Below are positions 4,370 through 44,604 of a DNA stretch of 47,428 nucleotides, one piece after another. The notes below the pieces were generated by a model. That model was not told the DNA's origin. It ran no database searches and worked only from the letters and a program-made list of their open reading frames with translations. Positions within the stretch are counted from its first letter, which is position 1. Every line of letters starts with the position of its first letter. Source of the DNA: Candidatus Omnitrophota bacterium (GTDB taxonomy: Bacteria; Omnitrophota; Gorgyraeia; Aquiviventales; Aquiviventaceae); contig JACPTX010000016.1 in NCBI GenBank assembly GCA_016192545.1, forward strand, positions 1-47,428, written 5' to 3'. Both the position numbers and the translations under genes were made by a program.

Positions 4370-4666
4370 ATGCCGCCATCCGCTGCACCCGGTCCCATGG
4401 CGATGCTGTTTCCGTTCGTCATGATGTTCGCGATCTTCTACCTGCTGGTATTCCGCCCGCAGGCCAAGGTCCGCAAGGCCCACGAGCAGATGCTCAAAAA
4501 TCTCAAGAAGCACGATGAGGTGGTCACGGGCGGCGGGATCTTCGGCACCGTCGTGAACATCAAGGAGCAGAGCGTGACGTTGCGGGTGGATGAGAACGTG
4601 CGCCTCGAGGTCGAGAAGAGCGCGATCACGCGCCTGGTGAAGGCCAGCCAAGGGGGTGCGGCGTGA
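4370..4666 (+). CDS. yajC: Preprotein translocase subunit YajC
   Basis: This small (98 aa) inner-membrane protein of the SecDF-YajC complex has one N-terminal membrane segment (AMLFPFVMMFAIFYLLVF), then the family signature RPQ and a soluble domain. A strong ribosome-binding site (CGAGGAGG) precedes the ATG. It lies directly upstream of secDF, separated only by the inverted-repeat element at 4666-4795. Confidence 0.95.
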   Translation: MPPSAAPGPMAMLFPFVMMFAIFYLLVFRPQAKVRKAHEQMLKNLKKHDEVVTGGGIFGTVVNIKEQSVTLRVDENVRLEVEKSAITRLVKASQGGAA

Positions 4667-4795
4667 TCCCACGCCCTGCGGCAGGCTGTCACCGACAGCC
4701 CCTGCAACTTGCGCGCATGACACCTATGGTTCCTACAGACAGGCATGGTCGTTGCAGTGCCACGCCAAAGGCGTGGCAGCCGCAGGGCGTGGGAT
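4666..4795. repeat. Outer-stem/two-hairpin intergenic element, copy A
   Basis: The 17-bp arms ATCCCACGCCCTGCGGC (4666-4682) and their exact inverse (4779-4795) enclose two hairpins. The first is GGCTGTC-ACC-GACAGCC (4684-4700); the second is TGCCACGCC-AAA-GGCGTGGCA (4758-4778), directly against the right arm. A further CTGCAAC/GTTGCAG pair (4702-4708, 4751-4757) closes the middle. The element fills the gap between the yajC stop and the secDF start. Its outer arm nearly matches the element at 32485-32596. Whether it acts as RNA or is a MITE/REP-like DNA element cannot be told here. Confidence 0.88.
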
Positions 4796-4796
4796 G

Positions 4797-6992
4797 ATGC
4801 CGGCCAGCATGAAGTGGCGGCTGCCGCTGGTCCTGGCGGCGATCGCCCTGTCCGCGTGGTACGCGTTTCCGCTCTCGACGCGCATCAGCCTCGGGCTCGA
4901 CCTGCAGGGCGGGATGCACCTGATCCTCAAGGTGGACACGGCCAAGATCCCGCCGGAGGCGAAGGGGCGCGACGTGACCGCCATCGCCCTGGAGGTCATC
5001 CGCAACCGGATCGACCAGTTCGGCGTGCGCGAGCCGCTCATCCAGCGGCAGGGCACCGACCACATCCTCGTGCAGCTGCCGGGCGTCACCGACCGCGACC
5101 GGGCGCTGAAGCTGATCGGCCGCACCGCCCTGCTGGAGTTCAAACTCGCGTCGGACAATCAGCGCCTGCTGGAGCGGGCGCTGAAAGGCGACGTCCCCGC
5201 GGGCCACGAGCTGGCGGAGGAAATCGACGGGACCCCGCTGCTGCTGGAAATAGAGGGCTCGCTGACCGGCGCGATTCTGTCGGACGCGTATGTGGACGCG
5301 GGCGAGTTCGGCTTGCCGGAGGTCAGCTTCCAGCTCAACAAGGACGGGGCAAGGGACTTCGCCCGGATGACCGGCGCGCACATCAACCGCCGGCTGGCCA
5401 TCGTGCTCGATGGAAAAGTGCAGTCGGCCCCGGTCATCCAGAGCCGGATTTCGGATGCCGGGCGCATCACCGGGCGGTTCACCAGGGAAGAAGCGCACGA
5501 CCTGGCGATCGTCCTGCGGGCCGGCGCCTTGCCCGCGCCCATCGTCGTCGAGGAGGAGCGCACCGTCGGCCCGACGCTCGGAAAGGATTCCATCCGCGCG
5601 GGGCTGCTGGCGACGGCGGTGGGCGGCCTGCTGGTCGTCGCCTTCATGGTGGGTTACTACTGGCTCGCCGGGATCGTGGCGATCATCGCGCTGACCTTGA
5701 ATCTCCTCATCATCCTCGGCTCGCTGGGCTACCTGCAGGCGACGCTCACCCTGCCCGGCATCGCCGGCATGATCCTCACGCTCGGGATGGCCGTGGATGC
5801 CAACGTCCTCATCTATGAGCGCATCCGAGAAGAGCTGAAGGGCGGGCGTCCGCTCAGTCTGGCGATTGACGCGGGATACGGGAAGGCGCTCTCCGCCATT
5901 GTGGATTCCAACGTGACGACGATCATCGCCGCCGTGTTCCTGTACTGGTTCGGGACCGGGCCGATCCGGGGGTTTGCGACGACGCTGACCGCCGGCATCC
6001 TGGCCAGCATGTTCACGGCGATCTTCGTCACGCGGGTCGTCTTCGACGTGCTGTTGTCCACCGGGCGGCTGAAGGCGCTGCGGATGGCGCATCTGATCCG
6101 GGAAACGAAGCTGGATTTCATCGGCAAACGCCGGCTCTGTTACGTCGCGTCCACCCTGGTGATCGCGGTCGGGGCGGCGGCGTTCATCCAGCGGGGGACA
6201 CAGCGCTATGGGATTGATTTCACCGGCGGGCTGCTGCAGGAATACCGGCTCGCCGAGCCGGTCGCCGCGGATACCCTGCGCGCCACGCTCGGCAAGGTGG
6301 GGTTGGGGGATGCGGTGATTCAGGAGTTCGGCTCGCCGACCGAATGGCTCATCCGCACGCCGGATGACGCCGAGGCGGAGATTGAGCGCACCATGGCGCT
6401 GACGCGGGAGGCCCTCTACGCGGATTTCGGCCGGGAGGCTACGCCGGAGCTGGCGCGCGTCGAGCGCGTGGGACCGACCGTCGGGTCCATCCTGCGGCAG
6501 AAAGCGTGGATGGCCATCGCCTGGTCCATGCTCGGCATCTTGCTCTACGTCGCCTTCAGGTTCCGGCACTTCGACTTCGGGCTGGCCGGCGTCATCGCGC
6601 TCATCCATGACGTCGTGGTGGCGACGGGCCTGCTGTGCCTGACGGGCCGCTCGATTGACCTGGTCGTCGTCGCCGCGCTCTTGACCATCGCCGGTTTCTC
6701 CGTCAACGACACGATCGTCATCTACGACCGCGTGCGGGAGAACATGCGCCTGGCCCGCAAGGTCGACCTGGCGCAGATCATCAACCTCAGCGTCAACCAG
6801 ACGCTCGGGCGCACGCTGCTGACATCGCTGACCGTGATTTTCGAAGTGCTCGCGCTCTACTTCTTCGGCGGGGAAGTCCTGCACGATTTCGCGTTCTGCC
6901 TCCTGGTCGGGTTCATCTCCGGTGTCTATTCGACGGTGTACATCGCCTCGGCGTTCGTCATCACGTGGAGAAGGCTCTTCAGGCCCGCCTAG
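4797..6992 (+). CDS. secDF: Fused SecD-SecF protein-export membrane protein
   Basis: SecD and SecF are joined in one chain (about 731 aa). The SecD half has an N-terminal membrane segment, LGLDLQGGMHLIL, the periplasmic P1 domain and a 6-TM block with GMAVDANVLIYERIREE. The SecF half begins near RRLCYVASTLVIAVG and carries GIDFTGGLLQEYR and SVNDTIVIYDRVREN. SecDF uses the proton gradient to pull exported proteins to completion. The ATG at 4797 follows the repeat arm; 4794 and 4809 are alternatives and none has a clear Shine-Dalgarno site. Confidence 0.93.
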   Translation: MPASMKWRLPLVLAAIALSAWYAFPLSTRISLGLDLQGGMHLILKVDTAKIPPEAKGRDVTAIALEVIRNRIDQFGVREPLIQRQGTDHILVQLPGVTDRDRALKLIGRTALLEFKLASDNQRLLERALKGDVPAGHELAEEIDGTPLLLEIEGSLTGAILSDAYVDAGEFGLPEVSFQLNKDGARDFARMTGAHINRRLAIVLDGKVQSAPVIQSRISDAGRITGRFTREEAHDLAIVLRAGALPAPIVVEEERTVGPTLGKDSIRAGLLATAVGGLLVVAFMVGYYWLAGIVAIIALTLNLLIILGSLGYLQATLTLPGIAGMILTLGMAVDANVLIYERIREELKGGRPLSLAIDAGYGKALSAIVDSNVTTIIAAVFLYWFGTGPIRGFATTLTAGILASMFTAIFVTRVVFDVLLSTGRLKALRMAHLIRETKLDFIGKRRLCYVASTLVIAVGAAAFIQRGTQRYGIDFTGGLLQEYRLAEPVAADTLRATLGKVGLGDAVIQEFGSPTEWLIRTPDDAEAEIERTMALTREALYADFGREATPELARVERVGPTVGSILRQKAWMAIAWSMLGILLYVAFRFRHFDFGLAGVIALIHDVVVATGLLCLTGRSIDLVVVAALLTIAGFSVNDTIVIYDRVRENMRLARKVDLAQIINLSVNQTLGRTLLTSLTVIFEVLALYFFGGEVLHDFAFCLLVGFISGVYSTVYIASAFVITWRRLFRPA

Positions 6993-12832: not shown

Positions 12833-13843
12833 ATGAAAATCGCGCTGGACGCGATGGGGGGCGACACCGCTCCGGAAACCGCCGTGGCGGGAGCCCTCCG
12901 CGCCGCCCGCGAGCTGCCGGTCGAGCTGCTCCTGATCGGCCGGCAAGACGCCGTTGAGCGGGAGCTCGCCCGCTATCAGGACCGCCCCGCCAATCTCTCC
13001 ATCCTCCACGCCTCGGAAGCCATCGGCATGGACGAGCCGCCCGTGTCCAGCGTCCGGAAAAAGAAAGACGCGTCCATCAACGTCGGCATGGCGGTCCTGC
13101 GGGAAGGGAAAGCGGATGCGTTCGTGTCCGCCGGCAACACCGGCGCCATGGTCTGCGCCGCGATGCTGAATCTCGGGCTGCTGTCCGGCGTGGAGCGCCC
13201 GGGCATCGCCCTGACGCTGCCGGGACTGCGGGGGGAAACGCTCCTCATCGACGTCGGCGCCAATATCGAGCCCAAACCGTCGCATCTGCTGCAGTACGCG
13301 CTGATGGGGGAGGCCTACGCGCGGTTTGTCCTGGAGCGCCAGCGCCCCCGCGTCGGCCTGCTCAACGTCGGGCAAGAGGAGAGCAAAGGCACCGACTTCC
13401 ACAAGGAAACCTACGGGCTGCTTGAGGCGGCCGGGATCAACTTCGTGGGCAACGTCGAGGGCCGGGATATTTTCCTGGGCGACTACGACGTGATCGTCTG
13501 CGACGGATTCGTCGGCAACGTCGCGCTCAAGACCGCCGAGAGCCTCGCCTACGCGATCAAGGAAGTCCTGAAGCGCTCCTACCGGATGAGCCCCATCACG
13601 CGCCTCGGCGCATGGCTGTCCCGCGACGCCTTCCTGGCCCTGCGCAAGGAGATCGACTATGCGGAGCACGGCGGGGCCCCCCTCCTGGGCGTCAACGGGG
13701 TCTGCATCATCGCGCACGGCGCCTCCTCGGCCAAGGCGATCAAGAACGCGATCCGCGTCGGGTATGAATCGGCGCGGCACGACGTCAACCGCCACCTCGT
13801 CGAGGAAGTCCAGCGCTACGCGCACGCCTCCCCCCGGTCATGA
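12833..13843 (+). CDS. plsX: Phosphate acyltransferase PlsX
   Basis: PlsX makes acyl-phosphate from acyl-ACP for phospholipid synthesis. The 336-aa protein starts MKIALDAMGGDTAPE and contains SAGNTGAMV, LNVGQEESKG and DGFVGNVALKT, the family's conserved blocks. It begins one base after the rpmF stop. The TGA stop (13841-13843) forms the left edge of the palindromic element that separates it from fabH. Confidence 0.96.
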   Translation: MKIALDAMGGDTAPETAVAGALRAARELPVELLLIGRQDAVERELARYQDRPANLSILHASEAIGMDEPPVSSVRKKKDASINVGMAVLREGKADAFVSAGNTGAMVCAAMLNLGLLSGVERPGIALTLPGLRGETLLIDVGANIEPKPSHLLQYALMGEAYARFVLERQRPRVGLLNVGQEESKGTDFHKETYGLLEAAGINFVGNVEGRDIFLGDYDVIVCDGFVGNVALKTAESLAYAIKEVLKRSYRMSPITRLGAWLSRDAFLALRKEIDYAEHGGAPLLGVNGVCIIAHGASSAKAIKNAIRVGYESARHDVNRHLVEEVQRYAHASPRS

Positions 13844-13930
13844 TCCCCCCACCTGTGTATTCGCCGCAGGCGAATCCAGTCATTGGTCAGCGTGTCGTTG
13901 GCCCTCCGGGCCAAACACAGGTGGGGGGAT
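13843..13930. repeat. Outer-stem/two-hairpin intergenic element, copy B
   Basis: The 16-bp arms ATCCCCCCACCTGTGT (13843-13858) and their perfect inverse (13915-13930) directly abut two hairpins: ATTCGCC-GCA-GGCGAAT (13859-13875) and TTGGCCC-TCC-GGGCCAA (13898-13914). A 22-base linker joins them. The left arm begins at the last base of the plsX stop; the right arm includes the first two bases of the fabH ATG. Architecture matches copies at 4666 and 32485, but the sequence differs. Confidence 0.9.
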
Positions 13931-14927
13931 GACCCGCGCCGCCTCGTCCGCCTCCCGCATCGGGATCGTCGGGCTGGGCATGCACGTGCCCAGCAAGGTG
14001 CTGACCAATTTCGACCTGGAGAAGATGGTCGAGACGTCGGATGAATGGATCCGCACGCGCACCGGCATCCGGGAGCGCCGGATCGCGGAGCCCGGCACGA
14101 CGACCAGCGACCTGGCCTGTGAGGCGGCGCGCCACGCGCTGAAGAACGCCGGCCTGAGCGCCAACGACATCGACCTCCTGATCGTGGCGACGACCTCGCC
14201 CGACATGCTGTTCCCCTCGACCGCCTGCCTCATCCAGTCCCGTCTGGGCGCGAAGGACGCGGTGTGCTTCGACGTCTCGGCCGCCTGCTCGGGCTCGGTC
14301 TTTGCGATGGTCACCGCCCAGCAGTATCTGGAAGCCGGGCGCTACAAGCGCGCCCTGGTGATCGGCGCGGAGATCCTCTCGAGCTTCATCGACTGGACCG
14401 ACCGCTCCACCTGTGTGCTGTTCGGGGACGGGGCCGGCGCCTGCGTGATGACGAAGGTGAGCCGCGGGGGCATCCTGGCGACCGACATGGGCTCGGACGG
14501 CTCTGCGGCGGAATTGCTCTACATGCCGGGCGGGGGCTCCAAGTACCCGCCGTCGCATGCCTCCGTCGACCAGCGGCTGCATTTTCTGCGGATGAACGGG
14601 ACGGAGATCTTCAAGCTCGCCGTGCGGCGGATGGCCGAATCGGCGCAGACGGTCGTCACGCGCGCCCGCCTGAAGCCGGAGGATGTGGACTGGTTCATCC
14701 CGCACCAGGCCAACATCCGGATCATCCAGGCGGTCGCGAAGCGGGCGGATATCCCCATGGAAAAAGTCTTCATCAACGTGGAACGCTACGGCAACACCTC
14801 CGCCGCCTCCAACCTGATCGCCCTCTACGAAGCGACCCAGAACGGCCCCGTCAAGCGCGGCGACCGCGTCGTGCTGGTCGCCTTCGGCGCCGGCCTGACC
14901 TGGGGCTCCGTCCTCCTCCAGTGGTAA
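13929..14927 (+). CDS. fabH: 3-oxoacyl-ACP synthase III
   Basis: FabH (KAS III) starts fatty acid synthesis by condensing acetyl-CoA with malonyl-ACP. The 332-aa chain has the catalytic Cys in SAACSGSVF, His in PHQANIRI and Asn in YGNTSAAS. Typical blocks TSDEWIRTRTGIRERRI and FGAGLTWGS are present. The ATG at 13929 follows the repeat arm. It lies in the conserved plsX-fabH-fabD order and overlaps fabD by seven bases. Confidence 0.97.
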   Translation: MTRAASSASRIGIVGLGMHVPSKVLTNFDLEKMVETSDEWIRTRTGIRERRIAEPGTTTSDLACEAARHALKNAGLSANDIDLLIVATTSPDMLFPSTACLIQSRLGAKDAVCFDVSAACSGSVFAMVTAQQYLEAGRYKRALVIGAEILSSFIDWTDRSTCVLFGDGAGACVMTKVSRGGILATDMGSDGSAAELLYMPGGGSKYPPSHASVDQRLHFLRMNGTEIFKLAVRRMAESAQTVVTRARLKPEDVDWFIPHQANIRIIQAVAKRADIPMEKVFINVERYGNTSAASNLIALYEATQNGPVKRGDRVVLVAFGAGLTWGSVLLQW

Positions 14928-20443: not shown

Positions 20444-20527
20444 AAAGTCCCGGTTTCCTTCACCCTCGACTCGCTCCACGGAGCGGATGGGGAAGGGCTC
20501 GCAACGCACGAGCGCCTTCGGACGATT

Positions 20528-20682
20528 GGCGGGCAGGTCTTCTGGCTTCCCCTCCTCCTCGCGCCTTCCCATCCCCGATGCTTCGCTTTGCGAAGCAAAG
20601 CGTTGGGGATAGTGGCCTTCAGCGAGGCCTTGCCGGGGTTACAGCGGCGGGTCCGCGCCCGATTTGCACGGGCTTCCCTTTT
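20528..20682 (-). promoter_or_regulatory. Cobalamin riboswitch
   Basis: Read on the minus strand, the element starts AAAAGGGAAGCCCGTGC. It continues with the aptamer core GCCGCTGTAACCCCGGC and GGCCACT, then GGGAAGGCGC, and ends with the B12 box GAAGCCAGAAGACCTGCCCG. Order and spacing are those of the adenosylcobalamin-class aptamer. A 40-base palindrome (20571-20610) replaces a peripheral stem between GGCCACT and GGGAAGG. The regulated gene is the TonB receptor. Confidence 0.92.
20571..20610. repeat. 40-bp palindrome inside the riboswitch
   Basis: The outer arms are ATCCCC/GGGGAT and the inner hairpin GCTTTGC-GAA-GCAAAGC (20585-20601). It aligns over all 40 bases with the recJ insertion at 7597-7636 (opposite strand, same sense in the two transcripts). 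Confidence 0.85.
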
Positions 20683-20683
20683 A

Positions 20684-20745
20684 GCTCCGCCGTTAGGCGG
20701 AGCACCCACCAACCTTTACCCCGCCCTTGCGTGCAAGGGCGGGGT
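20684..20745. terminator. Two hairpins downstream of the TIGR04073 gene
   Basis: ACCCCGCCCTTGC-GT-GCAAGGGCGGGGT (20718-20745) and GCTCCGCC-GTTA-GGCGGAGC (20684-20703) lie between the TIGR04073 stop and the riboswitch. The first may end transcription of the upstream gene, though no strong T tract follows on the minus strand; the second is next to the aptamer 5' end. The remaining bases to 20790 show nothing else. Confidence 0.55.
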
Positions 20746-22959: not shown

Positions 22960-23013
22960 AAGGGGTCAGACCCCTCAAGAACTACGGCCTCAACTGACGG
23001 GGTCTGACCCCTT
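22960..23013. repeat. Inverted pair of GGGGTCAGACCCC palindromes
   Basis: AAGGGGTCAGACCCC (22960-22974) and GGGGTCTGACCCCTT (22999-23013) are exact inverses, 24 bases apart. Each is itself nearly palindromic. A partial third unit (AGGGGTCGGGG) follows. Confidence 0.88.
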
Positions 23014-23086: not shown

Positions 23087-24508
23087 ATGAGCCGTCGGTA
23101 TGAGGTGGCAGTGATCGGCAGCGGGCCGGGCGGCTACGTGGCCGCACTGGCCGCCGGCCGCCGCGGCCTGCGCGCCTGCCTCATCGAGCGCGAGGCCTGG
23201 GGCGGGGTCTGCCTGAACACGGGCTGCATCCCGACCAAGGCCCTCACGGCGGTCGCCCACGCGATGCGCACGATCAAGCAGGCATCGGCGCTCGGCATCC
23301 GCGTCGGGGAGGCGCGCGTGGACTTGCCGGCCGTGATGGCGCGCAACGCCCGCATCATCGCGACCCTCCAGCAGGGCCTGACGGGTCTGCTGCGGCAGCA
23401 GGGCATCGAGCTGATCGCCGGCGAGGCCTCCTTCGAGGACGCGCACACGTTGCGCCTCGCCTCCGGAGGGCGGACCGAGCTGCTCGCGGCCGAACGCGTC
23501 ATCATCGCAACCGGCGCCCAGCCCAGCTCCGGGCCGTGGACCTTTGATGGGGTTCGCCGGCTGTCCTACCGCCATCTCCTGGCGATGACCGAGCTGCCTG
23601 CGTCGCTCCTGATCATCGGCGGGGGCGTCATCGGCTGCGAGTTCGCCTCGTGCTTGGCGCACTTCGGCGTCGCCGTCACCATCGTGGAGCAGCAGCCGCA
23701 GATCCTGCCGGGCGAGGATCCTGAGGCGGTGCGTGTGCTCGCGCGCAGCCTCCAGGCCCAGGGCGTCGCGCTGCTCACCGGCACGACGGTACAGGAGCTC
23801 AACGACTCCTCGGAAGGCGTGCAGGCGCGGCTCACGTCGGGACAAGTGGTGAAAGCCCGGCGGTGCCTGATCGCCATCGGCCAGCGGCCGAACGTGCAGG
23901 GCCTGGGGCTGGAACGGCTCGGCATCAAGATCGACGGCGGGATCGAGGTGGATGCGCATCTGCTGACTTCCCAGCGGCACATCGCCGCGGTCGGAGATTG
24001 CCTGGCCGGGCATGGGCTGGCGCACCTGGCCAGCGCCGAGGGATGGCTGGCCGTGCGCAATCTCTGCGAGAAGACCCCGGACGCGTTGGATCGCACCCGC
24101 GTGCCCCGGTGCGTCTATGCGGATCCTGAGCTGGCGCACGTGGGGATGCTGGAATCCGAGGCGCCCGCCTCCTGCCGCGTGAGCCGGTTCTCGTTCGCCG
24201 CGCTGGGCAAGAGCCTGTGCGACGAGGAGCCGGAGGGGTTCGTGAAACTCGTCGTGGACGCGGCGACCGGCCGCGTGCTCGGCGCGACGATCGTCGGGTC
24301 GCAGGCCTCGTCGCTGATTCATCTGGCGGTTCTCGCGATCCACCAGGGACTCACGGCCCGGCAGCTCGCGCACACGGTCACGGCGCATCCGACGCTGCCG
24401 GAGGCGGTCAGCGAAGCGGCCGCGCAGATTTACGGGGAAGCCTTGACCACCTCCATCACGGCGCGGGCTCCCAGAAGGGGTCAGACCCCTCAACTGGAAG
24501 GGGTCTGA
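23087..24508 (+). CDS. lpdA: Dihydrolipoamide dehydrogenase (E3)
   Basis: The 473-aa protein is an FAD/NAD disulfide oxidoreductase: FAD motif VIGSGPGGYVAAL, redox-active Cys pair GGVCLNTGCIPTKAL, NAD motif IIGGGVIGCEFAS, AAVGDCL, and the His-Glu pair in TAHPTLPEAV. It reoxidises lipoamide on 2-oxoacid dehydrogenase or glycine cleavage complexes; no partner subunits are nearby. The last residues (RRGQTPQLEGV) and the stop codon come from a GGGGTCAGACCCC repeat (24475-24514), so the native C-terminus was altered by a repeat insertion. Confidence 0.94.
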   Translation: MSRRYEVAVIGSGPGGYVAALAAGRRGLRACLIEREAWGGVCLNTGCIPTKALTAVAHAMRTIKQASALGIRVGEARVDLPAVMARNARIIATLQQGLTGLLRQQGIELIAGEASFEDAHTLRLASGGRTELLAAERVIIATGAQPSSGPWTFDGVRRLSYRHLLAMTELPASLLIIGGGVIGCEFASCLAHFGVAVTIVEQQPQILPGEDPEAVRVLARSLQAQGVALLTGTTVQELNDSSEGVQARLTSGQVVKARRCLIAIGQRPNVQGLGLERLGIKIDGGIEVDAHLLTSQRHIAAVGDCLAGHGLAHLASAEGWLAVRNLCEKTPDALDRTRVPRCVYADPELAHVGMLESEAPASCRVSRFSFAALGKSLCDEEPEGFVKLVVDAATGRVLGATIVGSQASSLIHLAVLAIHQGLTARQLAHTVTAHPTLPEAVSEAAAQIYGEALTTSITARAPRRGQTPQLEGV

Positions 24509-24514
24509 CCCCTT
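24475..24514. repeat. GGGGTCAGACCCC pair at the lpdA 3' end
   Basis: AAGGGGTCAGACCCCT (24475-24490) and AAGGGGTCTGACCCCTT (24498-24514) are inverted copies. The second supplies the lpdA TGA stop at 24506-24508. Confidence 0.9.
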
Positions 24515-30324: not shown

Positions 30325-30869
30325 TTCTGTCGTATCAGCGGCATCATCCGCGGATCCACCCGACGGCGTTTGTGGCGCCGGGAGCCGCGGTGATCGGCCG
30401 GGTGACGGTGGGCAAAGAGGCGAGCGTGTGGTTCGGCTCGGTCGTGCGCGGCGACGTCAACCGCATCGTCATCGGCGAGGCGACCAACATCCAGGACGGC
30501 TCGATCCTGCACGTGGATGACGACCATCCCTGCCTGATCGCCGACCACGTGCATGTGGGGCACCACGCCAACCTGCACGGCTGCGTCGTGGGACGCGGGG
30601 CGATGATCGGCATCGGCGCGATCGTCCTCAGCGGCTCGCGGGTCGGCGCCGGGGCGATGATCGGCGCCGGCAGCGTGATCCTGGAGGGGATGCGGATTCC
30701 GCCGAGGATGCTCGCGGTCGGCGCGCCGGCGCGCGTGGTCCGGCGGGTGACCGCGCAGGACCTCGCCTATATCCGCCGGTGGGTCGCCAAATACGTCCGC
30801 CTCGCCAAGGCCTACCGCAAAAACAGGGACGTTTCTATTTTTCCTCAGACTGAGGAGGGAGAAAAATAG
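30321..30869 (+). CDS. Gamma-carbonic-anhydrase-like left-handed beta-helix protein
   Basis: The 182-aa protein has hexapeptide repeats and the gamma-CA/YrdA pattern RGDVNRIVIGEATNIQDGSILH, HVGHHANLHGC and GIGAIVLSGSRVGAGAMIGAGS, with three candidate metal-binding His residues. Family members are carbonic anhydrases or related metal-dependent proteins of uncertain activity. It overlaps the upstream gene (ATGA). The last residues (NRDVSIFPQTEEGEK) and the TAG stop are encoded by the palindromic repeat at 30825-30879. Confidence 0.88.
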   Translation: MILSYQRHHPRIHPTAFVAPGAAVIGRVTVGKEASVWFGSVVRGDVNRIVIGEATNIQDGSILHVDDDHPCLIADHVHVGHHANLHGCVVGRGAMIGIGAIVLSGSRVGAGAMIGAGSVILEGMRIPPRMLAVGAPARVVRRVTAQDLAYIRRWVAKYVRLAKAYRKNRDVSIFPQTEEGEK

Positions 30870-30879
30870 AAACGTCCCT
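30825..30879. repeat. AGGGACGTTTCTATTTTTC inverted repeat between convergent genes
   Basis: AGGGACGTTTCTATTTTTC (30825-30843) and its exact inverse (30861-30879) flank a small hairpin CCTCA-GAC-TGAGG (30843-30855). It supplies the stop codon of the gamma-CA gene (TAG 30867-30869), and the last two bases of its right arm form part of the YjbQ stop (30880-30878, minus strand). The T-rich arms could also terminate transcription from both sides. Confidence 0.92.
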
Positions 30880-31405: not shown

Positions 31406-31465
31406 ATACATAGGAATTCCAGTATACTGACGGGACCGGAGCCCGTCAAATCTCCGGCGATGCGC

Positions 31466-31471
31466 TATAAT
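31466..31471 (+). promoter_or_regulatory. -10 box just before the ATP-grasp gene
   Basis: A perfect TATAAT lies six bases before the ATG at 31478, so transcription would start at or next to the start codon. The -35 region is weak (best candidate CGTCAA, 31444-31449, 16-bp spacer). Confidence 0.55.
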
Positions 31472-31477
31472 ACTCCG

Positions 31478-32485
31478 ATGCACATTGGGTTGACCTACGA
31501 CGTGCAAACCGATCCGCGCGACGAGCGGCAGGCGGAGTGGGACCCGCCCCGCGTCCTTGACGCGCTCTGCCAGGCGCTCCAGACGCTGGGCCATGACGTC
31601 GTCCGCCTGGGCGACGCCTCGCGTCTGCTGGTCTCGCCTAACTGCCTGAAGGCGGTGGACCTGGTCTTCAACATCGCCGAGGGCGCGCGCGGACGCTGCC
31701 GCGAGGCCTGGGCGCCGAACCTGCTTGAGCTCGCCGGCGTGCCGTGCGTGGGGTCGGATGCGCTGGCGTTGTGCCTGGGGTTGGATAAGCTCGCGTCCAA
31801 GCGGCTGGCACGGGCGGAAGGCCTGCGCACGCCGGCATGGCTTGCCGTGAGCGACGCGGCGCAGATTCCAGAACGGATCCCGCCGGCGTTTCCGGTCATC
31901 GTCAAGCCCCGCTATGAGGGCTCCGGCATCGGCATTGATGAAGGCGCCGTCGTCCATGACCGCCAGGCGCTCCAGCGCCGCGCGGCCGCGATGCTCGAGC
32001 GCTGGCGCCAGCCGATGCTCATCGAGGAATTCATCCCCGACGGCGAGCTGACCGTCTGTCTGATCGGCAACAGCCCCCCGACCGCGTATCCCGCGGTTCA
32101 GCGCGCCATTGATCCGCGCACGCGGCTGTCCTGCCACGTGGCGCGCGCCTGTCTGCCGTCGCCGGACGGCGACAGGCAGGCGGCTCAGGGGGACTGGATC
32201 ACCCCGCTTGAGCTGACCGAGCCGCTGGAGCGCGAGGCGCAGCGGATCGCCCTGGTGATGTTCGAGACGCTCGGCTGCGCGGATATGGCCCGGGTTGACG
32301 TGCGGGTTGATGCGCAGGGCCGCGCCTGGTTTCTCGAGATTAACCCCCTGCCGTCGCTGGACCCGGAGGGCAGCTTCGGACTGCTGGCCGAATCAGCGGG
32401 GTTGAGCTACCCCCGGATGATCGGCCGCATCCTCGACGCCGCCTGCCAACGTCTTGGGCTGGTCGGAACGCCGGTGAAATCATGA
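31478..32485 (+). CDS. D-alanine-D-alanine-ligase-like ATP-grasp enzyme
   Basis: The 335-aa protein starts MHIGLTYDVQTDPRDERQAE. It contains the ligase-family blocks DLVFNIAEG, ELAGVPCVGSDALALCLGLDK, FPVIVKPRYEGSGIGI (ATP-binding) and FLEINPLPSLDPEGSF (metal-binding). ATP-grasp ligases of this group join amino acids; a Ddl role in peptidoglycan is possible, but the divergent N-terminus leaves other peptide ligase functions open. A perfect -10 box upstream implies a leaderless mRNA. Confidence 0.85.
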   Translation: MHIGLTYDVQTDPRDERQAEWDPPRVLDALCQALQTLGHDVVRLGDASRLLVSPNCLKAVDLVFNIAEGARGRCREAWAPNLLELAGVPCVGSDALALCLGLDKLASKRLARAEGLRTPAWLAVSDAAQIPERIPPAFPVIVKPRYEGSGIGIDEGAVVHDRQALQRRAAAMLERWRQPMLIEEFIPDGELTVCLIGNSPPTAYPAVQRAIDPRTRLSCHVARACLPSPDGDRQAAQGDWITPLELTEPLEREAQRIALVMFETLGCADMARVDVRVDAQGRAWFLEINPLPSLDPEGSFGLLAESAGLSYPRMIGRILDAACQRLGLVGTPVKS

Positions 32486-32596
32486 TCCCACGCCCTGCCT
32501 CTCAGCCTACGGCTGGCGCACTCGCGCCAAGCCGTATTGTCGCAACCCCAGCGAGTGCGCGGCCAGCTATGGGCTGGCCGAGGCAGGGCGTGGGAT
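32485..32596. repeat. Outer-stem/two-hairpin intergenic element, copy C
   Basis: The arms ATCCCACGCCCTGCCTC (32485-32501) and their perfect inverse (32580-32596) share 14 bases with copy A at 4666. Inside are CAGCC-TAC-GGCTG (32503-32515), a middle stem GCGCACTCGC/GCGAGTGCGC (32516-32525, 32551-32560), and GGCCAGC-TATGG-GCTGGCC (32561-32579) against the right arm. Again the element spans exactly from the upstream stop codon to the downstream ATG. Confidence 0.9.
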
Positions 32597-33398
32597 GAGC
32601 GTTCCGGAGCCGTCGCCCGCCGGCGTCTACGCCTACCCCCGCTACTACGCCATCGGCTATCAGTGGAACACCAAAGCCGAGTGCGATTTTCTCGAGGCGT
32701 GCATGCTGCAATTCGCCCGCCGCAAGGCCGCCGGGGTGCTGGATATCGGCTGCGGGGCCGGGCGCCATCTGCTGGAGCTGGCCGGCCGCGGCTACACAGC
32801 CAGCGGCTTCGACCTGCGCCCTGAGATGGTGCAGTTCGTCAAGGACGCGGCGAAGCAGGCCGGCCTTGCCGTGACGGTGTTCCAGGACGACCTGCGCACC
32901 GCCACGCTGAGCGGCCGCTTCGACCTGGCCTTCTGCCTGATGGACACGTTCCGGTTCCTGCTCACCAACGACGAGATCATCCGGCACCTGCGCGAGGTGG
33001 CCGAGCACTTGAACCCCGGCGGCCTGTACGTCACCGATTTCTGGATCCCGACCAAGTGGGATCAGATCGCCAACGAGATCTACCAGTGGGAGCAGACCGA
33101 AGGCGACACGACGGTGCGGGTGTTCTACGTGCAGCATCCCGACTCGGTCAACCCGGTGAGCCAGACCTTCGAGGACGAGCTGGTGTTCAAGGTGGAGGAG
33201 GGGGAGACGTCCAAAGAAATCCACGGGACCCGCACCCGCACCCGCCTGATCATGCCGCAGGAGTTCCAGGCGCTCGTCATGGCCTGCGGCGCCTTCGACC
33301 TCGCCGGCGCGTTCTCGGATTTCGACCTCATCAAGACCCTCGAACCCTCCTGTATCTCATGGCGCATGGTCAGCGTCCTCAAGAAGCGCGCCCCATAG
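32595..33398 (+). CDS. Class I SAM-dependent methyltransferase
   Basis: The 267-aa protein has a Rossmann-fold SAM site VLDIGCGAGRHLLELAGRGY, GFDLRPEMVQFV, LAFCLMDTFRFLLTNDE, and HLNPGGLYVTDFW. It resembles methyltransferases with a C-terminal beta insertion (YVQHPDSVNPVSQTF...LVFKVEEGE). No substrate can be assigned. The ATG sits on the end of the repeat element, with no separate ribosome-binding site. Confidence 0.86.
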   Translation: MSVPEPSPAGVYAYPRYYAIGYQWNTKAECDFLEACMLQFARRKAAGVLDIGCGAGRHLLELAGRGYTASGFDLRPEMVQFVKDAAKQAGLAVTVFQDDLRTATLSGRFDLAFCLMDTFRFLLTNDEIIRHLREVAEHLNPGGLYVTDFWIPTKWDQIANEIYQWEQTEGDTTVRVFYVQHPDSVNPVSQTFEDELVFKVEEGETSKEIHGTRTRTRLIMPQEFQALVMACGAFDLAGAFSDFDLIKTLEPSCISWRMVSVLKKRAP

Positions 33399-35349: not shown

Positions 35350-35834
35350 TGGCCAAGAAGGCCGAGCCCGGTTCCTCCACCCTCGCCACCAACCGCAAGG
35401 CCCGCCGCGACTACCACATCTTCGACACGGTCGAGGCGGGCATCGTCCTGCTGGGGCCGGAGATCAAGTCCCTGCGCGCCCACCGGGCCTCGCTCGATGA
35501 CAGCTTCGCCCGGATTGATGAGGGCGAGGCGTTCCTGTATAATATGCATGTCAGCCCGTACGAACAGGGCGGGTGCTACAATCCCGGCGACCCGACGCGC
35601 GTTCGCAAGCTTCTCCTGCACCGTTCCCAGATCGAGCGGCTCATCGGACGCCTCAGTCAGCGGGGCCTGGCGCTCATCCCCTTGCGGCTCTACCTCAAGC
35701 ACGGGCTGGCCAAGGTCGAGCTGGCCCTGGGCAAGGGGAAGAAGCTCTATGAAAAGCGGGAGACGATCCGAACGCGCGAAACCGAACGCGAGATGCGTCG
35801 TCTCGTCCGAACCAGACAGAAACGGGGGCGATGA
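35349..35834 (+). CDS. smpB: SsrA-binding protein SmpB
   Basis: SmpB binds the tRNA-like part of tmRNA and places it in stalled ribosomes for trans-translation. The 161-aa protein has TNRKARRDYHIFDTVEAGIV, GPEIKSLRAH, FLYNMHVSPYEQGG and a basic tail needed to mimic an anticodon. It is followed immediately by its partner RNA; the last 11 bases of smpB are also the first 11 of ssrA. Confidence 0.96.
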   Translation: MAKKAEPGSSTLATNRKARRDYHIFDTVEAGIVLLGPEIKSLRAHRASLDDSFARIDEGEAFLYNMHVSPYEQGGCYNPGDPTRVRKLLLHRSQIERLIGRLSQRGLALIPLRLYLKHGLAKVELALGKGKKLYEKRETIRTRETEREMRRLVRTRQKRGR

Positions 35835-36267
35835 GAATCGATTCGGATTAGGAGCGCTGTGAGGGGCATGCCGAGGTGGTCAGGAGGCCTCGTGCCGAAA
35901 GGCACCCCCGAGGCTTGATTTGCACCGTAAGGGGCAAATCATCGGGGGGAAAACACCTGACGCCAATACAAGTGCCAACTACGACGCTGTAGCAGAAGCG
36001 GAAGCAATTCTGGCTTCTGAGGCACTCGTCGTCGCCTAACTAGGCGGCGCCGTCCGCCGGGCCGGCCTGCAGACCCGGATGGGCGTCTAGGGCAGGCTGG
36101 TCGTGACCTGCGCCGCTGAGGATCACGGCGAGGAGCAATCAGTGGCTCGGTTCCGCCAAGCTGGCTCTGCGAGCGGGGCGGGACGACGGCTCAATGCAGG
36201 GCTACGCATGTAGAGGGCTCACGCACTCGATCCGAAGACGCGGGTGCAATTCCCGCCGCCTCCACCA
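35824..36267 (+). ncRNA. ssrA: tmRNA
   Basis: The acceptor 5' strand GGGGGCG (35824-35830) pairs with CGCCTCC before ACCA (CCA end 36267). The T arm is GCGGG-TGCAATT-CCCGC; the loop has G where TTCRANN has the second T. GCATGCCGAGG (35867-35877) matches tmRNA pseudoknot 1. The tag frame ends at TAA 36037-36039. With the resume codon best placed at GCC 35974 the peptide starts ANYDAVAEAEA and ends ASEALVVA (21 residues). A resume codon at 35962 would add four residues. About 70 bases of extra hairpins lie within pseudoknot 1. Confidence 0.93.
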
Positions 36268-44336: not shown

Positions 44337-44366
44337 GGGAAAACAGGTACCGGTTCTGGTTTTTCC
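44337..44366. repeat. Repeat E, copy 2
   Basis: GGGAAAACAGGTACCGGTTC followed by TGGTTTTTCC. It is identical to copy 3 at 44496-44525 over 30 bases. Confidence 0.9.
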
Positions 44367-44374
44367 AAATGGTC

Positions 44375-44474
44375 CCCCCGCTGTTTTGCTGTGCCCCGTG
44401 AAATGCGAAGCATTTCCGGGACTCAGTCCTGGAAATCGCTCCGCGATTTCTCAGGGCAAAACAAGCCGCGGGGG
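44375..44474. repeat. Outer-stem/two-hairpin element, copy D
   Basis: Outer pairs CCCCCGC/GCGGGGG (44375-44381, 44468-44474) and GTTTTGC/GCAAAAC (44383-44389, 44456-44462). Inside are GAAATGC-GAA-GCATTTC (44400-44416) and GAAATCGC-TCC-GCGATTTC (44432-44450). Same layout as copies A-C but different sequence, and here not between two tightly spaced genes. Confidence 0.78.
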
Positions 44475-44495: not shown

Positions 44496-44525
44496 GGGAA
44501 AACAGGTACCGGTTCTGGTTTTTCC
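44496..44525. repeat. Repeat E, copy 3
   Basis: GGGAAAACAGGTACCGGTTC then TGGTTTTTCC, followed by CAAATAGTCCCGCCTAG. A degenerate relative (GGTGCCGG, then AGTCCCACCTAG) is at 46331-46367. Confidence 0.9.
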
Positions 44526-44604
44526 AAATAGTCCCGCCTAGCTGAGCTGGGTTCTACGGCGCGGCCTGGGGTTCAACTGGCACAGTTGGAACGCGAGGCA
44601 AGAG

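Follow-up and report, generated by a model that had tools for sequence, protein, structure and literature searches.

The window, a 47,428-nt stretch of DNA from a Candidatus Omnitrophota bacterium, carried three strongly palindromic elements on the forward strand, each fitted exactly between two genes. Element A (4666-4795, +; 130 nt including the terminal AT/AT) lay between yajC and secD, element B (13843-13930, +; 88 nt) between plsX and fabH, and element C (32485-32596, +; 112 nt) between the open reading frames (ORFs) 31460-32485 and 32595-33398. In all three, the first base was the A of the upstream TGA and the last bases were the AT of the downstream ATG, confirming the stop-to-start placement proposed in an earlier sequence-only reading of this DNA, along with its perfect arms of 16-17 bp (17, 16 and 17 bp for A, B and C, respectively). 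These arms were the top long-range stems of the window, exceeded by one 19-bp REP-like stem, and the three elements folded 6.3-8.4 SD better than dinucleotide shuffles, with 0/200 shuffles equally stable. The outer stem did not enclose two inner hairpins, as that reading had it: A and C had three, B had two strong and one weak, and three hairpins with short loops were usual across the family to which they belong (108 of 140 folds). A supposed fourth copy (D, 44375-44474, no strand assigned) was strongly structured (z -7.2), but its termini differed and it lacked the stop/start placement, so that it is not a member; it was flanked by 43-nt direct repeats (44337-44379 and 44496-44538; GGGAAAACAGGTACCGGTTCTGGTTTTTCCAAAT..). 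An Rfam scan of the window matched no family at A-D and returned only a cobalamin riboswitch, tmRNA and tRNA, all elsewhere. The riboswitch (20515-20724, -) and the tmRNA (35824-36267, +) scored above the gathering score. REP-like stems with AGGGACGTTTCTATTTTTC and AAGGGGTCAGACCCC, unrelated to A-C, were present at 30825-30879, 22960-23013 and 24475-24514.

By their termini and folds, A-C are members of a mobile palindromic family of groundwater bacteria, mainly Omnitrophota. The 1.35 Mb draft genome to which the window belongs contained 19 exact TGATCCCACGCCCT termini and roughly 23 complete copies, and a pattern search of GTDB genomes with both termini found at least 108 loci, nearly all in Candidatus Omnitrophota, with some in Elusimicrobia and in single bins of other phyla. 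The conserved 12-nt inverted termini were ATCCCACGCCCT-like (consensus ATCCC[AC]C[ACG][AC]CCT) and the outer stem was mostly 16-17 bp, while inner sequences varied widely between copies. Element B had been thought to share only its ATCCC/GGGAT ends with the others; its terminus, ATCCCCCCACCT, is in fact common in the family (26/137 copies). Matches in Verrucomicrobiaceae (L084) and Nitrospira (L135) were dropped, as ends such as GTTCGAATCCC resembled, by eye, tRNA 3' ends. The pattern TGATCCC..GGGATGA alone, searched in other families of the class, returned unrelated sequence, and we suspect chance matches. A search of IMG/VR by pattern and by protein found no element in phage or viral contigs, and annotated phages gave two weak GIY-YIG matches only.

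Copies were flanked by TG..GA in 114/140 cases and by TA..AA in 14/140, and therefore by a 3-nt duplication, TGA or TAA, around TCCC...GGGA; TGA/TGA or TAA/TAA flanks together accounted for 128 of the 140 copies. At A, the left copy of the duplicated TGA (4664-4666, +) is also the yajC stop and the right copy lies at 4795-4797. The base preceding the duplication was A in most copies, giving ATRA as the target. The copies found were mostly at ATGA start codons, including the ATGA/GTGA overlaps of operons, a distribution that both insertion preference and purging would fit. Because the element duplicates a 3-nt target at start codons that read ATGA, most commonly where two operon genes overlap, A-C come to lie exactly between stop and start. 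Relatives of the same family supplied the corresponding empty sites at all three loci. Between yajC and secD, most relatives had an element-free TGATG overlap, and the junction was filled in our genome, G026 and G009 by three different elements. Between plsX and fabH, an element-free ATGA overlap was found in several relatives, such as G002, G026, G011, G016 and G013, and at junction C no element was found in any relative examined (G021 reads cgcaTGACTAA). A-C are therefore insertions at a precise position, and probably recent ones judging from these comparisons. Unrelated spacers in sister genomes, which the sequence-only reading would have counted against a family, are a misleading sign here: the elements are mobile, and most sister genomes therefore lack one at these positions. 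The start codon of nrdR was empty in five relatives, occupied by a full-length copy (see below) in G124 and by short copies in G163 and G130, at the same nucleotide in all. Two further observations concern the target. At L176 (220-463) two elements were in tandem, the second inserted exactly where the first ends (GGGATGATCCC), a junction implying that the target resembles joined element ends. TAA-type copies L073, L114, L128, L105 and L149 lay in TATAAT-like sequence and several read TATA|A..TAAT, which is suggestive of sites that are possibly -10 boxes regenerated by insertion.

Extending from unpaired ends in G124 and G171 gave copies of 322 and 331 nt, each consisting of one whole-length ORF with a GIY-YIG domain. 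The GIY-YIG nuclease family is known from homing endonucleases and DNA repair. Nine full-length copies of 319-336 nt were found in all, including those in G023, G011, G010 and G016, from the same family as the window's genome, and others elsewhere in the phylum; none was found in our own assembly (86% complete). The Pfam GIY-YIG model (PF01541) gave two full-length matches, with E = 9e-15 and 3e-13 (bit scores 55.3 and 50.5; cut-off 22.6), and the aligned copies kept YVY, Y(V/L)G, RR and RE/YE/RE..LK-type positions, from which we predict a nuclease. Their termini and flanks were of the same kind as those of the short copies, 7/9 had a length of 1 mod 3, and most encoded a protein beginning M-I-P-(P/R/S)-P at the host start codon and ending Q(V/G)(V/M)G on the duplicated TGA; two of the nine (G125 and G016) did not end on the overlapping TGA. 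At nrdR, the short copy aligned to both ends of the full-length copy. With dN/dS of 0.09-0.25 in unsaturated pairs, the full-length ORF is, by this codon-level measure, under purifying selection. Other small GIY-YIG genes of Omnitrophota (L344, L345, L349, L351, L352, L353, L354 and L355) sat between other palindromic ends (ACCCCGCACCTTCTT, ATCCCGCACCTTTT, CCCCCACACCAATT and similar; CCC..CACC palindromes), in elements of about 290-360 nt that seemingly have their own start codons. These are probably sister families.

We infer from co-occurrence, shared ends and purifying selection that the GIY-YIG protein is the mobiliser, although we know of no GIY-YIG enzymes that make 3-nt target duplications. 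Under a more conventional origin, A-C would be ordinary MITEs of a DDE insertion sequence and the GIY-YIG gene a passenger or a later capture. The layout seen here, with terminal inverted repeats, a 3-nt duplication and short copies that have lost their interior, is standard for MITEs, and a 3-nt TNA target duplication occurs in some IS5-family elements. We nevertheless consider this improbable, given that every longer copy detected with these termini encoded GIY-YIG and no transposase, and that no DDE transposase gene with ATCCCACCACCT/AGGTGGTGGGAT at its borders was seen in stretches near matches. The nuclease is also under purifying selection, its N- and C-terminus are the element's own ends, and other CCC..CACC palindromes enclose related GIY-YIG genes of the phylum, making the association broader than the A-C family. 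Repeated occupation of one nucleotide, at nrdR and at yajC-secD, is consistent with homing into an empty site.

The initial interpretation had been of a structured family under selection for shape that might tune translation of the downstream gene. Much of it stood: placement is precise, the family is present in related genomes, operons are left intact and the elements probably bear on downstream translation. The folds are very stable and their shape is conserved; arm positions 13-17 were perfectly complementary in 77/137 copies with 73 different 5-mers, whereas about four would be expected with shuffled partners. A standing cis-regulatory RNA family, selected to tune translation, would account for such complementarity but is very unlikely, since each site was filled in one or a few genomes and empty in relatives, and unrelated elements occupied the same junction. 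Copies also lay within genes such as nuoF and at intergenic sites, and the downstream genes were of no apparent common type. Empty sites at all three loci make RNA-based regulation very unlikely as the primary function, and the strongest constraint detected was on a through-going reading frame.

When TGA-site copies were oriented by their flanks, 92/114 had a length of 1 mod 3, and in 90 of those 92 the frame set by the left start codon (ATG ATC CCA ...) was open, compared with 62 and 57 stops in the other frames. Taking one copy per sequence cluster, 49/54 start-codon sites (ATGA) had a length of 1 mod 3, with 0, 40 and 26 interior stops by frame, frame 0 being that of the captured start codon; a further sample of start-codon copies fitted the phase rule in seven of nine cases. 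Rule-breakers made up 5/54 clusters; among these, a 2-mod-3 length would give the downstream protein an in-frame extension. Non-start sites, again one per cluster, had 14, 11 and 11 stops and no phase preference (Fisher P = 6e-8 against start-codon sites). TGA sites with a real downstream ORF were almost all 1 mod 3 and open in frame 0, while TAA and intergenic copies had mixed phase and stops in that frame, following no rule. Copies within genes were mostly in frame with a length of 2 mod 3, and the minority of copies having this length lay mainly inside genes, as in nuoF at KWSF|IP..GI|IPPKPHYLVVNADEGE and in pckA-like and pilin-like ORFs. In nuoF, two different in-frame elements lay at nearly the same place in two genomes (L002, at C8:32421-32504 of our own genome, and L113). 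An open frame could in principle be inherited from coding ancestors and unselected, with the phase reflecting a few successful subfamilies: the short copies do go back to an element with coding capacity, and certain subfamilies have one shared length (the largest cluster had 16 copies). Such inheritance is a poor explanation that we judge to have very little chance of being right, as the rule held with one copy per cluster (49/54; stops 0 against 40 and 26), while TAA and other non-start copies had stops and mixed phase and in-gene copies followed another phase.

A length of 1 mod 3 makes frame 0 close on T+GA, that is, on TGA, and together with the stop-free frame it therefore creates a mini-ORF running from the gene's old ATG to a TGA that overlaps the regenerated ATG. 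At A, the mini-ORF (4663-4797, +; GTG to TGA, 44 codons, VIPRP...QGVG*) spans the whole element, and its stop overlaps the regenerated secD ATG at 4794-4796, the native secD ATG being at 4797-4799. Those of B (13840-13932, +; ATG to TGA, 30 codons, MIPPP...QVGG*) and C (32482-32598, +; ATG to TGA, 38 codons, MIPRP...QGVG*) end on stops overlapping the regenerated fabH ATG at 13929-13931 and the regenerated ATG at 32595-32597, respectively. Directly 5' of the regenerated ATG, the 3' terminal arm of A (AGGGCGTGGGAT, 4784-4795, +) resembles a Shine-Dalgarno (SD) sequence, as do its equivalents in B (13919-13930) and C (32585-32596). Predicted anti-SD pairing was at or below -4.5 kcal/mol for all 96 start-codon right ends (mean -7.8), against a mean of -3.1 for random 16-mers.

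The reading that we regard as probable is that A-C are internally deleted, non-autonomous copies of a GIY-YIG-encoding palindromic element that captures start codons and is tolerated through translational coupling. Its full-length form, of about 320-330 nt, is one ORF that encodes a small GIY-YIG nuclease and lacks start signals of its own. The sequences show that the element inserts at ATRA with duplication of TRA and that, at ATGA start codons, its ORF starts at the host ATG and ends on the duplicated TGA, the host ATG being regenerated from the element's last A plus TG. In the short copies the nuclease core is gone, whereas the two coding ends, the outer stem, the 1-mod-3 phase and the stop-free frame remain. 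From phase, stop content and the SD-like arm we infer that the mini-ORFs are translated and coupled to the downstream gene. A ribosome entering at the captured start codon would translate the hairpin region, stop at the TGA that overlaps the new ATG and re-initiate there, aided by the SD-like 3' arm that translation would have freed from the outer stem. Deprived of such a through-ORF, the new start would remain buried in the GC-rich 17-bp stem, some 100 nt away from the native SD, and so only open, in-phase copies would be tolerated. If coupling of this kind operates, it would also make sense that only start-codon copies keep phase and openness, and that a stem which would otherwise hide the start is tolerated. 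A split SD joined by the folded stem is possible but unnecessary, because the element's own right arm is SD-like. The GIY-YIG protein would cut ATRA targets and mobilise full-length and short copies alike.

Several known systems resemble this family in part. Rickettsia palindromic elements (RPE) are palindromes of about 100-150 bp found in frame within protein genes with an open frame, and the available parts of the review that describes them name no autonomous partner (PMC10969869). The 2-mod-3 copies in nuoF, pckA-like and pilin-like genes are likewise palindromic and in frame. Set against RPE as outlined in those parts, most copies here lie at start codons under a 1-mod-3 rule that closes a mini-ORF on an overlapping stop/start, and the Omnitrophota family, compared by description, has its own termini, its own targets and full-length GIY-YIG members. 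The seg genes of T4-like phages are free-standing GIY-YIG homing endonucleases that have inserted between genes of the host; many overlap the ORF upstream, and some have hairpins near the start (PMC2988022). They share with the Omnitrophota element a small GIY-YIG ORF that moves as a unit and is placed at gene overlaps. The latter differs in having terminal inverted repeats, a 3-nt duplication, many unrelated loci and abundant deleted copies, and in borrowing its target's start codon and regenerating a downstream start. Free-standing homing endonucleases are not known to have terminal inverted repeats or target duplication; the Omnitrophota element has both. The short copies are like MITEs in being short and non-autonomous, with terminal inverted repeats, target duplication and high copy number, but their apparent parent is a GIY-YIG ORF and not a transposase gene, and copies at start codons retain a coding frame. 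REP/BIME sequences (RAYT) are also short, multi-copy DNA hairpins between genes; the long perfect outer stem, target duplication and ORF set the Omnitrophota element apart, and its ends and target duplication do not suggest REP/RAYT. As described, RPE, seg genes and MITEs each lack this combination of features, and we lean towards treating the family as a class of its own. A search of the open literature (most subscription journals lying outside its scope) found no description of the element, and nothing relevant was found on MITEs with translational coupling or on GIY-YIG with palindromes.

With somewhat better than even confidence, we propose a class of minimal autonomous elements, about 320 nt long, in which the whole transposon consists of a GIY-YIG ORF and its palindromic ends: lacking its own promoter, ribosome-binding site and start codon, it would capture those of its host and return a coupled start codon, and its MITE-like offspring in operons would obey the same frame rule. 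If so, these would possibly be among the smallest autonomous mobile elements known. The family connects GIY-YIG nucleases with a mobile element that is palindromic and duplicates its target, and it hints at the kind of autonomous partner that RPE-like palindromes may have. Selfish DNA can, it appears, settle in the start codon of a gene, with secD, fabH and nrdR as examples, and the gene seemingly survives; the recipe for survival would be that the frame is kept, an overlapping stop closes it and the start is regenerated. Many unannotated ORFs of 28-48 codons are predicted in Omnitrophota operons and, because phase and stop content depend on the type of site, the family would serve as a natural test of translational coupling.
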